Below are positions 51,864 through 61,654 of a stretch of DNA of 62,831 nucleotides, in pieces (position 1 is the first letter of the stretch; the number at the start of each line of letters is the position of its first letter). Made by a program: the position numbers and the translations under genes. A model generated the notes under the pieces. That model did no database searches and was not told where the DNA came from. It saw only the letters and a program-made list of their open reading frames with translations. Origin of the DNA: an uncultured bacterium (lineage in GTDB: Bacteria > Cyanobacteriota > Vampirovibrionia > Gastranaerophilales > Gastranaerophilaceae); assembly GCA_902766395.1 (NCBI GenBank), contig CACXDL010000054.1:1-62831 (forward strand). Reading direction: 5' to 3'.

Positions 51864-52142
51864 ATGACTCTCGCAATTCTTGTAATAATTTTATTTATCG
51901 TTTTTATATTATCAGTTATGGCTTTAAAAAAGTTTAATTTGAAAGGCTTTGGGATAATAATATCTATTTTTTGTCTGATAATTTCGGGATGGATATGTTT
52001 TAGTTTACCGAAAATGCATAAACCTTTTTCAATTGATATTATAGAATATCTTATTAAAATAAATGATGACGGTTCTATGACAACAACAAAACAGGTTACA
52101 AAAACAATAATAAAAGACGCAAATGAGGACATTAAAAAATGA
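51864..52142 (+). CDS. Envelope system gene 1: two-helix membrane protein
   Basis: 92 aa. Two N-terminal hydrophobic helices (about 3-20 and 28-47), then a short polar domain (KINDDGSMTTTKQVTK). AGGTAGGAAG before the ATG. Stop overlaps the next start by 4 bases (ATGA). No family recognised. First gene of the 51864-57609 run. Confidence 0.75.
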   Translation: MTLAILVIILFIVFILSVMALKKFNLKGFGIIISIFCLIISGWICFSLPKMHKPFSIDIIEYLIKINDDGSMTTTKQVTKTIIKDANEDIKK

Positions 52143-53179
52143 AAAAAATAATTGCCTTATTCATAACTTTTATCTTATTTAGTTCAAATGCAAGTTTTGC
52201 ATTTAGCGAATTATATTATCTGAAAAATACCACAGAAGCAGCAATAAAACCAATTGTTGAATCAAATTATTCTGACAGAAATTATAAAATAATAAAATAT
52301 AATCCTTACTATGCACAATCTCAGAAAAATGCACAGGATTATGCAGTAATTATACTGCAGCAAAGTGGTTCAAACATGTTTTATTACTACCAATCAAACG
52401 ATGATAAACGATTAAACAAAAGAATTTTGAAAGAAATCAAAAACAAAAATATTACATATGAGCAATCATACAATACAAATATAATAAGCATATATGACGA
52501 ATTAGCAAAAAAAGCAATGAATACCCAAACAACACAGAATTACGTATTCACAGAGCCAATTGCGCAGAACAATATTAATAGAACAGACGGTTATACCCAA
52601 ACAGTACCAAAACAAACTCCTAACACATTAAAAGGATATGTTGCTCAACTTGCTTCAGGAACAAAAATAAATGTTTATTTACAAAGTTCTATAAATACAG
52701 CAAGCGCAGTTGAAGGAGACAGAATAGTTGCTGTTTTGACATCAGATATAAGGTACAACGGCGTAACAGTATTTCCGCAGGGAAGTGTTGTTTATGGCAT
52801 ATTAACCAAAGCAAGACACGCAACATACGGTTCCAGAAACGGAAGAGTTGTAATTGATTTCAATCAAATAGTTACTCCGGACAATAAAACATACAACATT
52901 TCAACAGAAAAGATCGACTTTACGGTAACAAACGAAGGTAAAATCGGAAGAGTTGCTACTAATGTCGCTGTCGGTGCTATTGTTGGAGGTCTGACAGGTT
53001 TATTAGTCGGAGCACTGAGCGGGAATATCGGTTCCGCAGCTGCAATAGGCGCAGGAGTTGGGGCAGGAGGAGCCTTAATTGGCGGAACTGCTGAAAGAGG
53101 CGTTGATGCAGAAATTCCGTCTTTTACGGAAATGGAGTTAGAATTAACTTCTCCTGTAAGTGTGACAGTTAATTATTAA
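52139..53179 (+). CDS. Envelope system gene 2: secreted TrbI/VirB10-like protein with glycine zipper
   Basis: 346 aa, signal peptide (1-21). A polar N-terminal half, then 165-262, whose layout (SGTKINVYLQSS, FPQGSVVYGILT, VVIDFNQIVTPDNKTYNI) resembles the C-terminal beta domain of TrbI/VirB10-type conjugation proteins, then a glycine-zipper hydrophobic stretch (272-317, GAIVGGLTGLLVGALSG). VirB10 spans the envelope and forms an outer-membrane pore. The similarity is by pattern only, and the zipper could be a membrane-inserting or assembly segment. Confidence 0.7.
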   Translation: MKKIIALFITFILFSSNASFAFSELYYLKNTTEAAIKPIVESNYSDRNYKIIKYNPYYAQSQKNAQDYAVIILQQSGSNMFYYYQSNDDKRLNKRILKEIKNKNITYEQSYNTNIISIYDELAKKAMNTQTTQNYVFTEPIAQNNINRTDGYTQTVPKQTPNTLKGYVAQLASGTKINVYLQSSINTASAVEGDRIVAVLTSDIRYNGVTVFPQGSVVYGILTKARHATYGSRNGRVVIDFNQIVTPDNKTYNISTEKIDFTVTNEGKIGRVATNVAVGAIVGGLTGLLVGALSGNIGSAAAIGAGVGAGGALIGGTAERGVDAEIPSFTEMELELTSPVSVTVNY

Positions 53180-53188
53180 GGATAAAAG

Positions 53189-53851
53189 ATGAATAAAAGG
53201 CTGATTACAATAGGTTTTTTAATTTTAGGAATAGCACTTTTGGCAAAGTCCTTATTCTTCTTTGGCAAAAATATAAAAGTTGATGAATTTCACAAAGCAG
53301 CCGTTGTTTTTATTCTTGAATCCAGCGCATCAAATAAAAATAAATTAGCAGAAGAAATAAAATATATTAAATCTCTTTGTGCAATCTTAGATCCTGAAGA
53401 TTCTGTAAAAATAATTAAAACGGCCAATAGTTCATACCTGATATATGAAGGTAATCCAAGCGATGCAACAGGAATCTCAAAAGCAATAGAAACATACACA
53501 AAGGATAATACAAATTCAACTTCATATGGAGAAGCAATAAAAAAATCAGTTGAATATTCTCTGACTATGAAAAAAGACGGATATGTACCGGCAGTTGTTG
53601 TTGTCGGGAGTCTTGAAAATTCCGGAGATTATAAAAAGCAAATTAATTGGGATGTATTACCAAAAAATATACAAAAAACAAAAGATTATATCCCGGAATT
53701 GGCAATGATGTTTGTTTATGCGTCTCCGGAAAAACTTGATGAAGTTAAAACCAAATTAAACCCGATACTGGGAGAAAAAAAGCTGATAGTCGCAACAGAA
53801 GTTAATGTCGACAAAGCTAACAGAAGATTTTTAGATGCAATAGGACGATAA
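53189..53851 (+). CDS. Envelope system gene 3: membrane-anchored vWA-like protein
   Basis: 220 aa. N-terminal helix (about 5-26), then a Rossmann-like vWA fold: first strand AVVFILESSASNK, in which E44-S-S-A-S48 takes the place of the MIDAS DxSxS. The MIDAS Thr and last Asp are also replaced (STSYGEA, VVVVGSLEN). Metal binding is therefore likely lost or altered. vWA domains mediate protein-protein contacts in multi-protein assemblies. 9 bases after gene 2. Confidence 0.65.
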   Translation: MNKRLITIGFLILGIALLAKSLFFFGKNIKVDEFHKAAVVFILESSASNKNKLAEEIKYIKSLCAILDPEDSVKIIKTANSSYLIYEGNPSDATGISKAIETYTKDNTNSTSYGEAIKKSVEYSLTMKKDGYVPAVVVVGSLENSGDYKKQINWDVLPKNIQKTKDYIPELAMMFVYASPEKLDEVKTKLNPILGEKKLIVATEVNVDKANRRFLDAIGR

Positions 53852-53864
53852 AGGAGTAATATAT

Positions 53865-55460
53865 ATGTCATTTACAATTAGTTCAAAAAATAACGAAAAA
53901 ACTTTTAATGACAAAGATTTGGTAAATATAGGATCAAAGCCTAATTTTGATTATCAAATGAATGTCGGATTTGATTTTATGCTGACTATTCAGTATGATT
54001 CTTCTGCCGGCAAATGTGTGTTATTAAATCAATTTAACAATAAAAAATTTCTTTTTAAAGGAAAACCCATTCCTCAGAAACTGGATATAGATAAGGTTTG
54101 CAAAATAATGATTGAAGGCAGTGATGAATTTATAACAATCAAAGTTTCTCAGGTTGCAAATAGAAATGTTTCTCAGGAAAATTTGACAGAAGAAGACATC
54201 AAGGCTATATACGGAGATGATATAAATCCTGCAGCAAAGTTGAGAATAGAAAAAAGAAAAGCTGAACTCGAAGAAGCCAGAGTTTCTATAATAAAAGAAG
54301 TTGGCGCAACTATAAACAATTTAAAACATAAAATTTCAATGAACTCAAAAGGCGGGATATTACTTCATATTGCATTATTTTTAGCATCTTTTGTTTGCGC
54401 ATTTGGAGTTTCTAATTATTTAACAGGTTTGCCATTAAGCGATGCCGGTTCAGTCATACAAATGCCTACAAATATGAAATTGATATTTATATATGCAATT
54501 ATCGTCTACGGAGTAGGATTAACACTTAAACAAGGGGCATTTTTATATTTACAAAATCGCCTGGGTGAAGATACTACAACATCTAAAATTGCTGAAAAAT
54601 TTATGATAGTTCTCTCTACAATGTTTTTTATCGCTATATATCTGATAAATGTTTTGTATTACCTGACACCTAAAACAATATCTCTGTTTGCAGTATTTAT
54701 TTCGCTATTTTTTGTCGGAACCACTGCAACACTTGCTTTAGGATGCGGATATTTCAAAAATGCTAATACCGAAACCCGTAAAGAACTGGACGAATATGAA
54801 TACAGACAAGATTTTGAACATGTTATTAAAGAATATCAGCAATGGATCGAGAGATTTGTTAATACTTTAAGCAATACAAAAATCAGAAATGTAAAAGATA
54901 AACTATTCAATTTACAGTTAAAATCAATCGGAGAAATTGCACTGGGTATTATCACCGCACCGTTCCTTGCTTATGGTGTTTCAAACACTCTTGCAATGTG
55001 TTTCCCTGAAGCCGCTGGCTGGATAAGGATTTCAGGTTTGAGATTCAGTCCTATATTCCTGACCCTTGCCACATTTTTGATTATTTTCGCATTTTTCTCA
55101 TTTGTAAGTGCATTCACATCAAACAAGAAAATTCAGGCATCTAATGTTTTGAAACAAGACGGATTCAGCAACTACATTCAGCACGGAGTTGAAATTTACG
55201 GTCTTGAAGGAATTAAAAAACTTGATTCTGAAATGCGCAGATCATTTATAATCGCACTTGCAATTATATTTATAGAATTTTCAATGAACGTTTCCTTCTT
55301 TATGCAGGAAATGGGTTCAGATTTAGGTGGTTTGTTACTGAGTGGAGTTGCAGCATTAGTTCCGACGGCACTATTAATCGCTGAAACATTTATGCTGAGC
55401 CAAACACGATTTGAAACATTTGCTTGTGAAGAACTTATAGCTAAAATAGACAAAGACTAA
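53865..55460 (+). CDS. Envelope system gene 4: polytopic membrane protein with FHA-like N-terminal domain
   Basis: 531 aa. A beta-rich cytoplasmic head (1-96; VNIGSKPNFDYQMN looks like an FHA IGR-type strand), a charged linker (105-160), then about eight membrane helices (162-186, 204-230, 245-268, 270-295, 354-382, 392-418, 460-482, 486-512) with a cytoplasmic helical loop (302-350). Not recognised. Its stop shares one base with the next ATG. FHA-like is a hypothesis from the strand pattern. Confidence 0.65.
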   Translation: MSFTISSKNNEKTFNDKDLVNIGSKPNFDYQMNVGFDFMLTIQYDSSAGKCVLLNQFNNKKFLFKGKPIPQKLDIDKVCKIMIEGSDEFITIKVSQVANRNVSQENLTEEDIKAIYGDDINPAAKLRIEKRKAELEEARVSIIKEVGATINNLKHKISMNSKGGILLHIALFLASFVCAFGVSNYLTGLPLSDAGSVIQMPTNMKLIFIYAIIVYGVGLTLKQGAFLYLQNRLGEDTTTSKIAEKFMIVLSTMFFIAIYLINVLYYLTPKTISLFAVFISLFFVGTTATLALGCGYFKNANTETRKELDEYEYRQDFEHVIKEYQQWIERFVNTLSNTKIRNVKDKLFNLQLKSIGEIALGIITAPFLAYGVSNTLAMCFPEAAGWIRISGLRFSPIFLTLATFLIIFAFFSFVSAFTSNKKIQASNVLKQDGFSNYIQHGVEIYGLEGIKKLDSEMRRSFIIALAIIFIEFSMNVSFFMQEMGSDLGGLLLSGVAALVPTALLIAETFMLSQTRFETFACEELIAKIDKD

Positions 55461-56404
55461 TGATATACAATGCACTATTACAAATATTGCTTATACTGGC
55501 AATTATATCTACAATATGCATCTGCACACTAAAACCGCAGATGCACAAATCTGTGATGGTTTATAATTCTGATTATAAGCTCGTTCCGACTCAGGAAATT
55601 GAAATTGAGCAGCAAAATATCCCTGTTATGGAACAGCCGGTGAAACCACAAACCTCAGTTGTTAAAATAGAGAATCAGGTTCAACCTCAAACCACAACAG
55701 TACATGTTCAACCGGTGAAAATTACTCAGACAAAAGCTCCGGTAAAGAAAACAGTCACAACAAAATCTCAACCGGTAAAAGTTGTTCAAAACAACATAAA
55801 ATCAGCAAAAACCAATATCGTCCAAGCTCCAAAAATTGATACCCAAAAGATTTTGAATAATAATCAGAAAATATTACAGGAAAAACAAATCCAAACAACT
55901 TCTACACCAGTTAAAAGTAGCAATACTCAAGTCGCAAAAGTCCCTGTACCGGTACAGACAAAAACTGTTACGACAGCCCCAAAAACTGTTACAGTAGCCC
56001 AAAAACCAGCAGTAAGAATTTCTCAACCGACACAAAAAGTCTTAACTGCAAGAGAAGAAGAAATTGCCTGGAACATTTGGAGATCAAATTTACAAAACAA
56101 AATTATGCAGGATACGAAATTACCATATATCCCTATGGGAACAATATTTAGATTTTCTTTTGATGTGGATAAATATGGAAAAATTTCCAACATCCAAACC
56201 TGGTCAGATACGCCCAAATATACTCCTCACGCAATTCAATTTGTTGCACCCGTAATAAGAAGTTATCAGGGACGTTCTATTTTGAATTTTCCTCAGGGAA
56301 CAAACAGAACTTCAACAAAATTTGTAGGAGCATGGAAGATTTCTACCAGTTCAAAATACAGCACACCTCAGGATTATAATGATATAGAAAAAATACAAAG
56401 GTAA
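55460..56404 (+). CDS. Envelope system gene 5: TonB-like protein
   Basis: 314 aa. N-terminal membrane helix (4-24), a long Lys/Pro/Gln/Thr/Val-rich periplasmic linker (45-195, repeated KPQ, QPVK, KTV units), then a TonB C-terminal-like domain (about 200-305; EIAWNIWRSNLQNKI, FRFSFDVDKYGKISNI). TonB transmits proton-motive energy to outer-membrane proteins. No ExbB/ExbD homologue is identified nearby; gene 4 might take that place. Overlaps gene 4 by one base. Confidence 0.75.
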   Translation: MIYNALLQILLILAIISTICICTLKPQMHKSVMVYNSDYKLVPTQEIEIEQQNIPVMEQPVKPQTSVVKIENQVQPQTTTVHVQPVKITQTKAPVKKTVTTKSQPVKVVQNNIKSAKTNIVQAPKIDTQKILNNNQKILQEKQIQTTSTPVKSSNTQVAKVPVPVQTKTVTTAPKTVTVAQKPAVRISQPTQKVLTAREEEIAWNIWRSNLQNKIMQDTKLPYIPMGTIFRFSFDVDKYGKISNIQTWSDTPKYTPHAIQFVAPVIRSYQGRSILNFPQGTNRTSTKFVGAWKISTSSKYSTPQDYNDIEKIQR

Positions 56405-56412
56405 ATATATAA

Positions 56413-57609
56413 ATGTTTAAATGCAAAGAATGTGGAACAGAATATGAAACAAAGCCGGATTACTGTGATTGTGGGAATAATACTTTTGAAGAAATAATAT
56501 CAACCCCAAAAGTTAAACAAGATATTTCGCAAATTACACCAAAACCAATTATAAAAAAAGAATCTCAGCCACATACAAAAACAAAAAGTGAACACCACAA
56601 AAAAACTTTTGATGAACAGTACCCGGAATTAGTCAGATTGAAAGAATCATTAGATCCGATTTCATTAATAATATTTGCTACATGCATTATTTTATCAGTT
56701 GTTTCTTTTGTATTCATAGGAAAATCTGACGACAAAACTATAAAAGAAGGGAAAAATAATACCACACAGGAAAATATTATCAAAAACATTCCTTCCATTA
56801 ATTCATATTGGGATGATACACCAATAAAACCTGAAATCGCAGAAATACCTGCAGAACCAGAACCCGCACAGAATAAAATAGTTGAAGAAATAAAACAAAT
56901 TATACCGATAGTAAAAGTTCAGCCGCCAAAACAAATAAACAAGCAAAATAATAATAATGTAAAAAAACAAGCACAAAGCCCTAAAGTAACTCAAACAACA
57001 GCAGCTAAAAATAAGAATAAGCAAACTGTATCAACAGCAAAAACCAGTTCTGTAGCTAAAAACACTCCACAAGCAAAATCTCCATCTGTACCGGATTATA
57101 GTTCTATAACCAAAAGAGTACAAAATAACTTAACTAAAACAACTCAAAATAATCAAATTTCAAATACAAATATTCAAACAACAAATAAAGTCAATACTTC
57201 TAAGCCATCCCAGACGGTAAATGTTGCCTCATTACCAACAATAACAACAAATACTCCAAATTCAAATGTTGTCCAAAAACCGGCTGCACCCGTTAAAACC
57301 AGCCAGCAAATAAAACAGGAATTAACAGAATACAAGGCAAATTTGAGAAATATTATAGGACGTAAAATTGATTTTACAAAAGTTGTCGGAGATGGAGAAT
57401 GCATTGTATCATTCAAAATTAATTCTTCAGGAAAACTTACAAACAGAGTTTTTTCAAAACAGTCCTCAAATTTAACATTGAATGATGCTGTTTATACTGC
57501 GGTCAATTCTACCCCGAGTTATTCAGCTCCTCCATCAGGATATAACGGAGAAACTTTGAATTTAAAAATAAAATTTTATAATGGGAACTTTGAAATATCA
57601 CTTTATTAA
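56413..57609 (+). CDS. Envelope system gene 6: zinc-ribbon / TM / TonB-like fusion
   Basis: 398 aa. A cytoplasmic N-terminal zinc-ribbon-like knuckle (C4, C7, C18, C20: FKCKECGTE and YCDCGN), a charged region, one membrane helix (82-103), an Asn/Gln/Lys/Thr/Pro-rich linker (130-300), and a C-terminal TonB-like fold (about 305-398; IVSFKINSSGKLTNRV). Placing a cytoplasmic zinc ribbon in front of a TonB-type protein is unusual. Its C-terminal fold is related to gene 5 but diverged. Ends before a strong terminator. Confidence 0.75.
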   Translation: MFKCKECGTEYETKPDYCDCGNNTFEEIISTPKVKQDISQITPKPIIKKESQPHTKTKSEHHKKTFDEQYPELVRLKESLDPISLIIFATCIILSVVSFVFIGKSDDKTIKEGKNNTTQENIIKNIPSINSYWDDTPIKPEIAEIPAEPEPAQNKIVEEIKQIIPIVKVQPPKQINKQNNNNVKKQAQSPKVTQTTAAKNKNKQTVSTAKTSSVAKNTPQAKSPSVPDYSSITKRVQNNLTKTTQNNQISNTNIQTTNKVNTSKPSQTVNVASLPTITTNTPNSNVVQKPAAPVKTSQQIKQELTEYKANLRNIIGRKIDFTKVVGDGECIVSFKINSSGKLTNRVFSKQSSNLTLNDAVYTAVNSTPSYSAPPSGYNGETLNLKIKFYNGNFEISLY

Positions 57610-57611
57610 AA

Positions 57612-57641
57612 AAATCACCTGAGAAAATCTCAGGTGATTTT
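57612..57641. terminator. Bidirectional terminator closing the six-gene system
   Basis: 13-bp perfect stem (57612-57624 with 57628-57640), loop AAA, T- and A-runs on both sides. It separates the convergent gene at 57647. Confidence 0.9.
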
Positions 57642-57646
57642 ACTAT

Positions 57647-58027
57647 CTATATATCCATTTTTTCCGGATTTACATAAACACGATTTAATTTCTTATCTAA
57701 AGCTTTATCTTCAATTTTTTTAGGAGGTTTATGATCATTAAATTCGTTCGGTCTTTGCTCGTCAAATTTTGGATGCATACCTTTAAAATCTTTCTTTCCA
57801 AATTTATGGTGTTTGCATGGAAGTTGTTTTTCAAATCCCGGTCTTATACCATACATTCCCCTGTGGAATTGCGGAAACTGAGGCTTGTTTAACGCATGTG
57901 CCAATAACAGTGCAAATAAGGTGCCTAAGAAAATCGCACCGGTTAAAAAGAAAAATTTACCGACTAATTTGCAAATTTCACAATTTTTACATTTACATTC
58001 TTCTATTTTGTTTTGTTCTTCACTCAT
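57647..58027 (-). CDS. Membrane protein with N-terminal Cys cluster and His/Pro-rich tail
   Basis: 126 aa, AAGGAG upstream. C11, C13, C16 and C19 (ECKCKNCEIC) form a metal-binding-like cluster in the cytoplasm, followed by a membrane helix (about 23-45) and a His/Lys/Pro-rich periplasmic tail (CKHHKFGKKDFK, HPKFDEQ, DHKPPKK). Not recognised. Could sense or buffer a metal; this is inference. Convergent with the six-gene system, with its own terminator half. Confidence 0.65.
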   Translation of the reverse strand: MSEEQNKIEECKCKNCEICKLVGKFFFLTGAIFLGTLFALLLAHALNKPQFPQFHRGMYGIRPGFEKQLPCKHHKFGKKDFKGMHPKFDEQRPNEFNDHKPPKKIEDKALDKKLNRVYVNPEKMDI

Positions 58028-59269: not shown

Positions 59270-61654
59270 ATGCAAGTACAAAAATTACAAAGTTATTCAA
59301 TTAAATATAGGTATACCAATTCTCAAAATACAAAAGATATTTCACCACACCCCCAAAAATCAAGTGTAAATTACAACCCTATTGCATATAGAGACTATAA
59401 TATAACCTTCTCTGCAAGAACTCCTGAAGATTTTTATGCTCAAGAGTTTAACAGAAATAATATGCCTTCAACAATGAAAGATTATTTATTTTTAGATTAT
59501 GAAAACAGACAACATATCCCACCTGAGCAGATGATGAGGGAAGTTTTTAAGTATCTTGAAATAGCTGACAACTTCACTGATGTAAAAAGTATTTACCCAA
59601 ATGAAGAATTATTTGCTAATTTGCATGAAAACCATACTAATTCCAGAACTGATACTGTTTTTGAAATTGAAATGGCAAAGGAATTAAGTGATGTGCCTTT
59701 ATTTAAAGATGGTAGTGATAATTTTGGGATCTATCTTTTAAGAAAAATTTATCAGGATGGAAAAACTTTAAGAGAAATTAACAAAGATTTTTTTGAAAAG
59801 GATATGAATATAGAATATAAAGGAATTATAACAAAACCTATGGAATATGAAACTTTGGGTAAATACGGCATCAGCTATCCAAATACTGCGTTTTGGAACT
59901 CCTTTATAAAAACAAGGGATGAATACAGAAAATTCTTTCAGCAATTACCAAAGGATTCTGTTATTCCAGGGGTACATATCCAAAGAGAATCTTCTAAAAG
60001 TGATTCAATTTCAAAGAAAGAACCAGCAGCTTCTGTTAGTGAAAAACCAAGAAAAAGACGCTTCAATATAAAACAGCATCAAAAGAAATCTATTCAGAAA
60101 GAAATAGCGGATAGAAAGATTATTGACCCCGAGTCCGTAAAAAAAATAGTAAGAAAGCGTTTTGCAAAAGATGATCCGGAAGCATCGTTTATTGTTCGTT
60201 ATATGAGTCCAATTATGACTATTGCTGCAGAACGAGCACATATGTCCGAGGAATTAAAATCTTTTGCAGATTATGAAAGGAGATTGGGCAAATCCGGGAA
60301 TGAGGATACAATGTTGGCTCGTTTTTGGAAGCAAAATCCTAAAATGATAGAAGTATTTTCTCATGCTGTAACTGATACCATGGATATGTTCGAAGATATT
60401 TATGGAGAAGGAGGCTCGATTGCTATAAATACTGATTTAGAAAAAATTATTCAAGAATCAGAAAAGAAAAAAATAATTGATTATATAAACCCGGAGTTTT
60501 TTGATTTATTGCAATATTCCCAGATAATTGATCCTGAGAGAAGAGAAAGATATGATTTGCATGACAAAATTCAAAGACAATGGGAACAACATTTTGATGA
60601 ACGTTATGGCAAGATAAATATTAATGCAGAAAATCCGAATATTCCTCAAAATGGTACTGAGGCACTTCTTTTAGAAGAAAAAATGGCACTTGAGGCTAAA
60701 AAGAATAATGCTCAACTTTACAAACTGCGCACGAAGGATGGAAGATATATTTATATTACTTCTAATCTTGATAAAGTATTAATTGATAATATAAAAGCAG
60801 GAGCAAAATATTTCCCTACAGAATATGCTTCAAAATATATAAAGGCAATTAAAAAAGAAGAATTCTCAGATAAATTTAAATTGTCGCTCGCAGCAAAGAA
60901 TACAGGAGAAGAATTTGAAGATGAACAATTATTGACTAAAGAAGAATTTGATAAAGAATTTTATAAAATTCTAAATTTCCATTATGACAATATTAATGAA
61001 GAACGCGCAGCTCATTTGTCGATGATTGATGTAATGGATTCAGATAAAGAAAAGCAAATAAAAGTTTATCCTGAGCTGTATAATACAGCAGTATTTAGTA
61101 TAAATGAGGGTGCCGTAGACGGAGATGAAAATGACCTCAAGCAGTTCAATACTTTTATGAAAAATTCAAAAAATAAAATTGATTTGAAATATTCAAATTA
61201 TTTGATTCCGCCTACTAAAAAAGAAATTGAGAAAATGAAAAATATAATATTTCAGATGCTCGAAAATTATGATAAACAAGACTTGGTCCTGAGTATAGAA
61301 GACTCAAATTCTGAAATTATCACAATGCTCAAAGAAACTTTACCATATGAGTTAAATAAAAATTCTCTTGATTTTTATTTAGCTTTGTTCTTGAAAAATA
61401 ACCCTTATTCAAAAACAATTTTACAAAATAGTAATAACCCTAAAATCAGGCAAGCAAAATTTGAGTTTGTAATGAATGATTTAGCAGATAATATCTTGTT
61501 CTCATTAGAAAGTTCTCCGGCTTATGTAATATTATTTAACAACAAAGTATATCAAAATCATAAACAAAAACTTTTACCAGATATCAGATATAAAATTGAA
61601 AATGCCGTAAATAAGCTTGATTTTAATCAAAAAATTACATATTATTCGGAATAA
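59270..61654 (+). CDS. Large hypothetical protein (794 aa)
   Basis: Start has CGGAG upstream. No signal peptide or membrane segment. The N-terminus (to about 60) is low-complexity with an aromatic motif (YNITFSARTPEDF), then a mostly alpha-helical, charged sequence. A basic linker (KPRKRRFNIKQHQKK, about 258-272) divides an N-terminal third from the rest. Acidic stretches and many Asn residues recur. I do not recognise a family or active-site motif. Single gene ended by a strong terminator; could be a secreted or cytoplasmic lineage-specific protein. Confidence 0.75.
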   Translation: MQVQKLQSYSIKYRYTNSQNTKDISPHPQKSSVNYNPIAYRDYNITFSARTPEDFYAQEFNRNNMPSTMKDYLFLDYENRQHIPPEQMMREVFKYLEIADNFTDVKSIYPNEELFANLHENHTNSRTDTVFEIEMAKELSDVPLFKDGSDNFGIYLLRKIYQDGKTLREINKDFFEKDMNIEYKGIITKPMEYETLGKYGISYPNTAFWNSFIKTRDEYRKFFQQLPKDSVIPGVHIQRESSKSDSISKKEPAASVSEKPRKRRFNIKQHQKKSIQKEIADRKIIDPESVKKIVRKRFAKDDPEASFIVRYMSPIMTIAAERAHMSEELKSFADYERRLGKSGNEDTMLARFWKQNPKMIEVFSHAVTDTMDMFEDIYGEGGSIAINTDLEKIIQESEKKKIIDYINPEFFDLLQYSQIIDPERRERYDLHDKIQRQWEQHFDERYGKININAENPNIPQNGTEALLLEEKMALEAKKNNAQLYKLRTKDGRYIYITSNLDKVLIDNIKAGAKYFPTEYASKYIKAIKKEEFSDKFKLSLAAKNTGEEFEDEQLLTKEEFDKEFYKILNFHYDNINEERAAHLSMIDVMDSDKEKQIKVYPELYNTAVFSINEGAVDGDENDLKQFNTFMKNSKNKIDLKYSNYLIPPTKKEIEKMKNIIFQMLENYDKQDLVLSIEDSNSEIITMLKETLPYELNKNSLDFYLALFLKNNPYSKTILQNSNNPKIRQAKFEFVMNDLADNILFSLESSPAYVILFNNKVYQNHKQKLLPDIRYKIENAVNKLDFNQKITYYSE

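Follow-up and report, generated by a model that had tools for sequence, protein, structure and literature searches.

The six-gene operon and its conservation

We examined a six-gene operon in a window (the whole stretch of DNA analysed, 62,831 nucleotides) that forms contig C54 of a 1.7-Mb draft genome, the nearest relatives of which are gut Gastranaerophilales, non-photosynthetic relatives of cyanobacteria. Gastranaerophilales are common gut bacteria, and to our knowledge their surface biology is largely undescribed. The list of open reading frames (ORFs) placed all six genes on the plus strand between positions 51864 and 57609. The successive junctions from gene 1 to gene 6 are a 4-base overlap, gaps of 9 and 13 bases, a 1-base overlap and a gap of 8 bases. 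A terminator-like hairpin (14 bp, -19.5 kcal/mol, z = -6.9) follows directly 3' of gene 6, and none of 200 shuffled sequences gave one as good. A search for promoters found sigma-70-like matches no more often than in shuffled sequence, and no promoter stood out. The features are listed below.

51864-52142, plus strand: gene 1, a 92-amino-acid single-pass membrane protein with PxMHK after the helix
52139-53179, plus strand: gene 2, a secreted protein of 346 amino acids with a TrbI/VirB10-C-like domain (about 165-270), then a glycine zipper (about 275-318)
53189-53851, plus strand: gene 3, one N-terminal membrane helix and a vWA domain
53865-55460, plus strand: gene 4, an FHA-fold head (residues 1-96), a long helix and about 8 membrane helices; the family signature of the system
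53865-54152, plus strand: the FHA-fold domain of gene 4 (residues 1-96), a structural match without a Pfam FHA match
55460-56404, plus strand: gene 5, an N-terminal anchor (PxMHK), a P/Q-rich linker and a TolA-III/TonB-like C-terminal domain (about 197-300)
56413-57609, plus strand: gene 6, a Cys4 zinc-ribbon-like N-terminus, one membrane helix, a P/Q-rich linker and a TonB_2 C-terminal domain
57611-57641, plus strand: the terminator-like hairpin, common to the six-gene set and a convergent gene (57647-58027)

With gene 4 as the query, public species genomes of bacteria and archaea yielded 72 loci, which together with a paralogue in the same genome gave 73 scored loci. The order from gene 1 to gene 6 was violated in none of them, and all six genes were present in 37. 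Gene 1 was detected in 46 loci; 17 loci had no detectable gene 1 and nine no detectable gene 6, some of these lying at contig ends. Median intergenic gaps across loci ranged from -1 to 15 bases. Because the genes flanking the operon mostly differ between loci, the shared order is not mere regional synteny. A sequence-only reading of this DNA had proposed a single operon with tight plus-strand spacing and one terminator, and the junctions, the hairpin and the conserved order all agree with it; scattering of the genes in relatives, which that reading had named as one result that would speak against a common system, was not seen. A glycerol-3-phosphate acyltransferase gene lies upstream in several other genera and was set aside as apparently ordinary synteny.

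Gene 4 was found in a single family only, within which its distribution was patchy (138 of 289 genomes of the class; 128 of 386 genomes of the phylum). Flanks longer than 3 kb on each side were available for 84 gene 4 loci. Gene 5 stood beside gene 4 in 83 of these, and a vWA protein, either gene 3 or a secreted one, did so in all 84. The lasting core is therefore a vWA protein, gene 4 and a TolA-like protein. The genome itself carries a second, shorter copy on contig C95, a triad of genes 3, 4 and 5 whose gene 4 is 41% identical. Other genera have a variant made of genes 2, 4, 5 and 6 without gene 3, with two to four secreted vWA genes divergently placed immediately upstream on the opposite strand, and a further variant combines genes 2, 3, 4 and 5 with a tiny PxMHK protein ahead of gene 6. 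One relative (L133:4451-11615, G196:C5) carries both types next to each other, with about 4 kb between the six-gene set and the triad. The operon was also found in three assemblies labelled 'uncultured Acinetobacter sp.' (L012, L025 and L027), whose gene 4 falls among Gastranaerophilales in the tree; these labels look wrong.

Folds and motifs of the encoded proteins

The AlphaFold2 model of gene 4 had a mean predicted local distance difference test (pLDDT) score of 83. Its residues 1-96 form an FHA beta-sandwich, for which the best structural match was FHA-1 of Mycobacterium Rv1747 (Z = 12.6, root-mean-square deviation 2.2 Å over 93 residues), so the fold upholds the earlier description of gene 4 as FHA-like; Pfam FHA gave no match. 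The likeness to Rv1747 lies in this N-terminal fold; whereas Rv1747 is an ABC transporter, no ATPase domain is present in gene 4. In 61 of 63 sequences, S stands where the phosphothreonine-binding R would be, and S-x-x-H is absent from the alignment; because both are missing, the head is probably a protein-contact head. In genomes of genus g6 (L158-L163), the FHA head is found on its own, as a free protein of about 99 amino acids that lacks the membrane segment; its gene lies beside or opposite a gene cluster of the efflux type.

The remainder of gene 4 comprises eight hydrophobic regions. Residues K222, R388, E471 and N475 were invariant in 132 sequences covering all variants, and E507 was conserved in 131; E471 sits inside a membrane helix, and E507 is close to a helix end. 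When gene 4 was compared with the group's own ExbBs, the hhalign probability was 0.1, and there was no match to Pfam MotA_ExbB. When structural searches were run with the model of gene 4, no fold was listed for the helices, a result dominated by matches to the FHA head and not proof of a new fold. Pfam matches to Tetraspanin and DUF2207_C were far below cut-off and inconsistent among members, and were set aside. A repeat of four plus four helices (168-290 and 360-510, with GVSN at 181-184 and 371-374, and N262 and N475 as matching invariant Asn residues) looked plausible on inspection; we do not claim this duplication, because the profile score of the two halves (27.9) barely exceeded the best of 40 comparisons with shuffled columns (26.7).

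Genes 5 and 6 were both confirmed as TonB-like, as the sequence-only reading had it. The C-terminal domain of gene 5 was modelled with pLDDT 93-98 and matched TolA III first (Z = 8.0, 2.7 Å over 93 residues), and the 22 best structural rows were all TolA or TonB. In gene 6, residues 306-388 matched TonB_2 (PF13103) above cut-off (3.8e-7), and this domain is related to the ordinary TonB of the same genome (hhalign probability 91). At the other end of gene 6, C4, C7, C18 and C20 are invariant, in keeping with the suggested zinc ribbon, for which no significant family match was obtained. Profile searches of genes 2, 3, 4, 5 and 6 against the sequences of solved structures returned no reliable relative, only weak TonB C-terminal matches for gene 6.

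The two proteins differ from ordinary TonBs in one motif. SxxxH is required in TonB and TolA for stator association and function (PMC8928145). At the start of the membrane helix, it was found in one of 43 gene 5 homologues and one of 33 gene 6 homologues, compared with 13 of 14 ordinary TonBs of the order. Since it is missing, genes 5 and 6 probably dock elsewhere than on ExbB, most simply on gene 4. A different motif, P-x-[MLI]-H after the membrane helix, occurred in 45 of 46 homologues of gene 1 and in 68 of 71 of gene 5; its frequency over all ORFs was 4.0%. It is absent from gene 5 of the triad and of some other variants. That genes 1 and 5 have this motif in common suggests, from sequence, that both anchors use one docking site.

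Gene 2 combines a signal peptide, a TrbI-like domain and a glycine zipper. The earlier call of the last two features was weak in the window copy (Gly-zipper match at 0.0055; no TrbI match) and clear in relatives, 18 of 39 of which matched Gly-zipper_YMGG and nine of 39 TrbI (PF03743; best 3.6e-10). A TagQ match in NCBIfam reached only 0.015, and the gene 2 profile had no sequence match among solved structures. Gene 3 was substantiated as vWA-like, with VWA_2 in 50 of 51 family members (best 1.8e-11). The metal site of this family (DxSxS...T...D) is largely kept, with D44 in 50, T111 in 47 and D141 in 45 of 51 members. The triad paralogue of gene 3 in the same genome has kept D44 and D141.

An ordinary TonB-ExbB-ExbD-ExbD operon lies on contig C41 of the same genome, apart from the six-gene operon, and other families of the order have kept it as well. 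It follows the genes for two TrbI-like secreted proteins (L113:2740-7052, G000:C41), and gene 2 is 29% identical over 258 amino acids to a protein ahead of this operon. At least one gene 2-like protein (one or two) was found ahead of the TonB operon in most genomes of the order examined. ExbB was present in all 12 further genomes tested, with or without gene 4, including 8 of 8 without gene 4. No TonB-receptor Plug domain was detected in this genome and 15 others of the genus; positive controls worked, and the assemblies are incomplete. Given that no Plug domain was found in the genus, uptake via TonB-dependent receptors is unlikely, and a TonB receptor system was rejected.

A secreted vWA protein associated with the operon

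A further protein, overlooked by the sequence-only reading, is likely the seventh part of the system. It is a secreted vWA protein of about 300 amino acids with an intact metal site (D93, S95, S97, T201 and D231 invariant). Its gene adjoins the operon in 18 of 73 loci, mostly in convergent orientation. Of the class genomes, 138 have gene 4, and 45 of these gave strong matches (E below 1e-100); the 151 that lack gene 4 gave none. Within the genus of the window (g1), all 13 genomes that carry the six-gene type have the protein, and none of the 10 triad-only genomes does (Fisher P = 8.7e-7, relatedness not corrected); in most of the 13 it is unlinked to the operon. The copy in the genome studied here (C27:12961-13872; 309 amino acids, ending in QNYEFINTEE) is likewise unlinked.

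The C-terminus of the secreted vWA protein consists of a P/Q-rich stretch followed, near the end, by Y-x-[FY]-[IV]. The loci at hand contain 610 ORFs whose N-terminus has a hydrophobic segment; this ending was found in 28, of which 27 were secreted vWA proteins. The secreted vWA protein is the best clue to the function of the system, and vWA proteins may be what the system acts on.

Candidate mechanism and alternative explanations

The sequence-only reading had described these genes as a trans-envelope set, a parts list that our analysis sustains, and had been aware of no described system that holds this set. We likewise found none: NCBIfam gave no match above cut-off, and the set was undescribed in the literature searched, from which most subscription journals were out of scope. 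Nor does it map to TonB-ExbBD or to type VI or type IV secretion, when checked against the reservation that it might belong to such a motor or to a known pilus or secretion system.

The nearest comparisons are with the Tol and Ton systems. As in Tol-Pal (TolQ-TolR-TolA-TolB-Pal), there would be an inner-membrane platform and a single-pass protein with a TolA III-like end, and capture of the disordered end of a partner by strand addition is proposed here too. Unlike Tol-Pal, the operon has no TolQ/TolR homologue, genes 5 and 6 have no SHLS-type histidine, and the system includes vWA and FHA parts and an eight-helix platform. Features in common with TonB-ExbB-ExbD are the TonB_2 domain of gene 6, the P/Q-rich linkers, and the gene 2-like protein with which the TonB operon of the same genome also starts; in contrast, gene 4 is not ExbB-like, and no receptor plug domain was found in 16 genomes of the genus. 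None of the six genes matched ExbD/TolR, and both ExbDs of the genome sit in the separate operon. Single-pass proteins with a TolA III/TonB C-terminal fold, as expected of Tol/Ton effectors, are represented by gene 5 (from its model) and gene 6 (from PF13103). Because neither a stator homologue in the system nor the docking motif was found on testing, we do not count it as a Tol/Ton member; it has the effector folds and general plan of Tol/Ton, yet stands outside them.

We tentatively propose, as a picture whose chance of being right in full we put somewhat below even, a Tol/Ton-like trans-envelope system that is built on a platform other than ExbB and acts on secreted vWA proteins. We are far more confident of the narrower claim that this is a single conserved system to which vWA proteins belong. 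In the proposed mechanism, gene 4 would form the inner-membrane platform and hold the single-pass partners, namely genes 1 and 5 through the PxMHK anchor, the vWA protein of gene 3, and gene 6. From genes 5 and 6, the TolA/TonB-like domains would cross the periplasm to gene 2, placed at or near the outer membrane, and to the secreted vWA proteins. There, by beta-strand addition, they may seize the short strand (Y-x-[FY]-[IV]) at the vWA C-terminus, much as TolA III takes hold of the N-terminus of TolB. TolA III binds this disordered N-terminus by strand augmentation (PMC8928145). The inheritance together of a TolA-like domain and a disordered end with an aromatic motif suggests a handshake of the TolA-TolB type, and for this reason we favour arms that act on secreted vWA proteins. 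Such capture could move or release the vWA proteins, or display them on the cell surface, where they might serve adhesion.

Gene 4 may also feed energy into these movements, standing in for ExbB-ExbD as the sequence-only reading had supposed. That supposition fares unevenly: gene 4 has no ExbB homology and a separate TonB-ExbB-ExbD-ExbD operon exists, while the missing SxxxH of genes 5 and 6 and the invariant intramembrane charges of gene 4 speak for it. In its strongest form, gene 4 would be a new inner-membrane energy transducer unrelated to ExbB, TolQ or MotA, driving TolA-like arms that mobilise vWA proteins to or from the surface in Gastranaerophilaceae, which we regard as rather doubtful.

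Several observations weigh against the proposed picture. All structure models are single-chain, and an energy role for gene 4 is indicated by its conserved charges alone, because its membrane part has no recognised relative. The Y-x-[FY]-[IV] motif is short and was noticed first and counted afterwards. Triad-only genomes gave no strong match to the secreted vWA protein, so not every variant needs it. The gene 3 of the window has itself lost two metal-site residues (D44E and D141S) and reads E-x-S-x-S/T/S. Finally, the ordinary ExbB-ExbD-ExbD motor of the same genome could drive genes 5 and 6.

This last point leads to an explanation that we consider unlikely, in which the ordinary ExbB-ExbD-ExbD motor drives genes 5 and 6 as additional TonB/TolA effectors, and gene 4 is only a scaffold or transporter. 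It gains from the presence of the TonB-ExbB-ExbD-ExbD operon in the genome and its conservation across the taxonomic order, from the gene 2-like proteins that precede it, from the kinship of the gene 6 C-terminal domain with that TonB, and from ExbB in 12 of 12 further genomes. However, ExbB occurs just as well where gene 4 is absent, gene 5 is tied to gene 4 and not to ExbB in 83 of 84 loci, and the docking motif is missing from both putative effectors. A sensing or signalling complex that exerts no force, in which the vWA domains read a cue from the surface or wall, for the FHA head to relay to a cytoplasmic partner, seems less probable still. vWA and FHA are binding modules, their combination is reminiscent of regulatory genes in certain type VI systems, and the FHA head exists as a free 99-amino-acid protein in another genus; yet that head lacks the phosphothreonine-binding residues, the neighbourhood contains no constant kinase, phosphatase or regulator, and the presence of two TolA/TonB-type proteins is difficult to account for unless work is done across the envelope.

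That the operon belongs to a known secretion machine of type VI or type IV, or is left over from one, is very improbable and largely refuted. vWA, FHA and glycine-zipper proteins are also found around type VI systems, and gene 2 resembles VirB10/TrbI of type IV secretion in its TrbI-like domain, behind which lies a pair of helices that might insert into the outer membrane. This similarity is weak, however; gene 2 has a glycine zipper, no VirB4-type ATPase accompanies it, and the operon is intact in many genomes. Both secretion types were rejected after searches that recovered the VipB sheath in 0 of 21 genomes and a VirB4-type ATPase in 0 of 21, the present genome included, with positive controls that worked.

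A few related motors (ExbB-ExbD and TolQ-TolR) are known to transmit force from the inner membrane to the outer one. If the proposed Tol/Ton-like system is real, a Tol/Ton-like arm on an unrelated platform would imply that such transmission was invented more than once. The secreted vWA protein offers a specific, testable client, and the PxMHK anchor and the Y-x-[FY]-[IV] tail are two short motifs that can be tested directly. Further along the window, the plus strand encodes a protein without any Pfam match that is 794 amino acids long (59270-61654).

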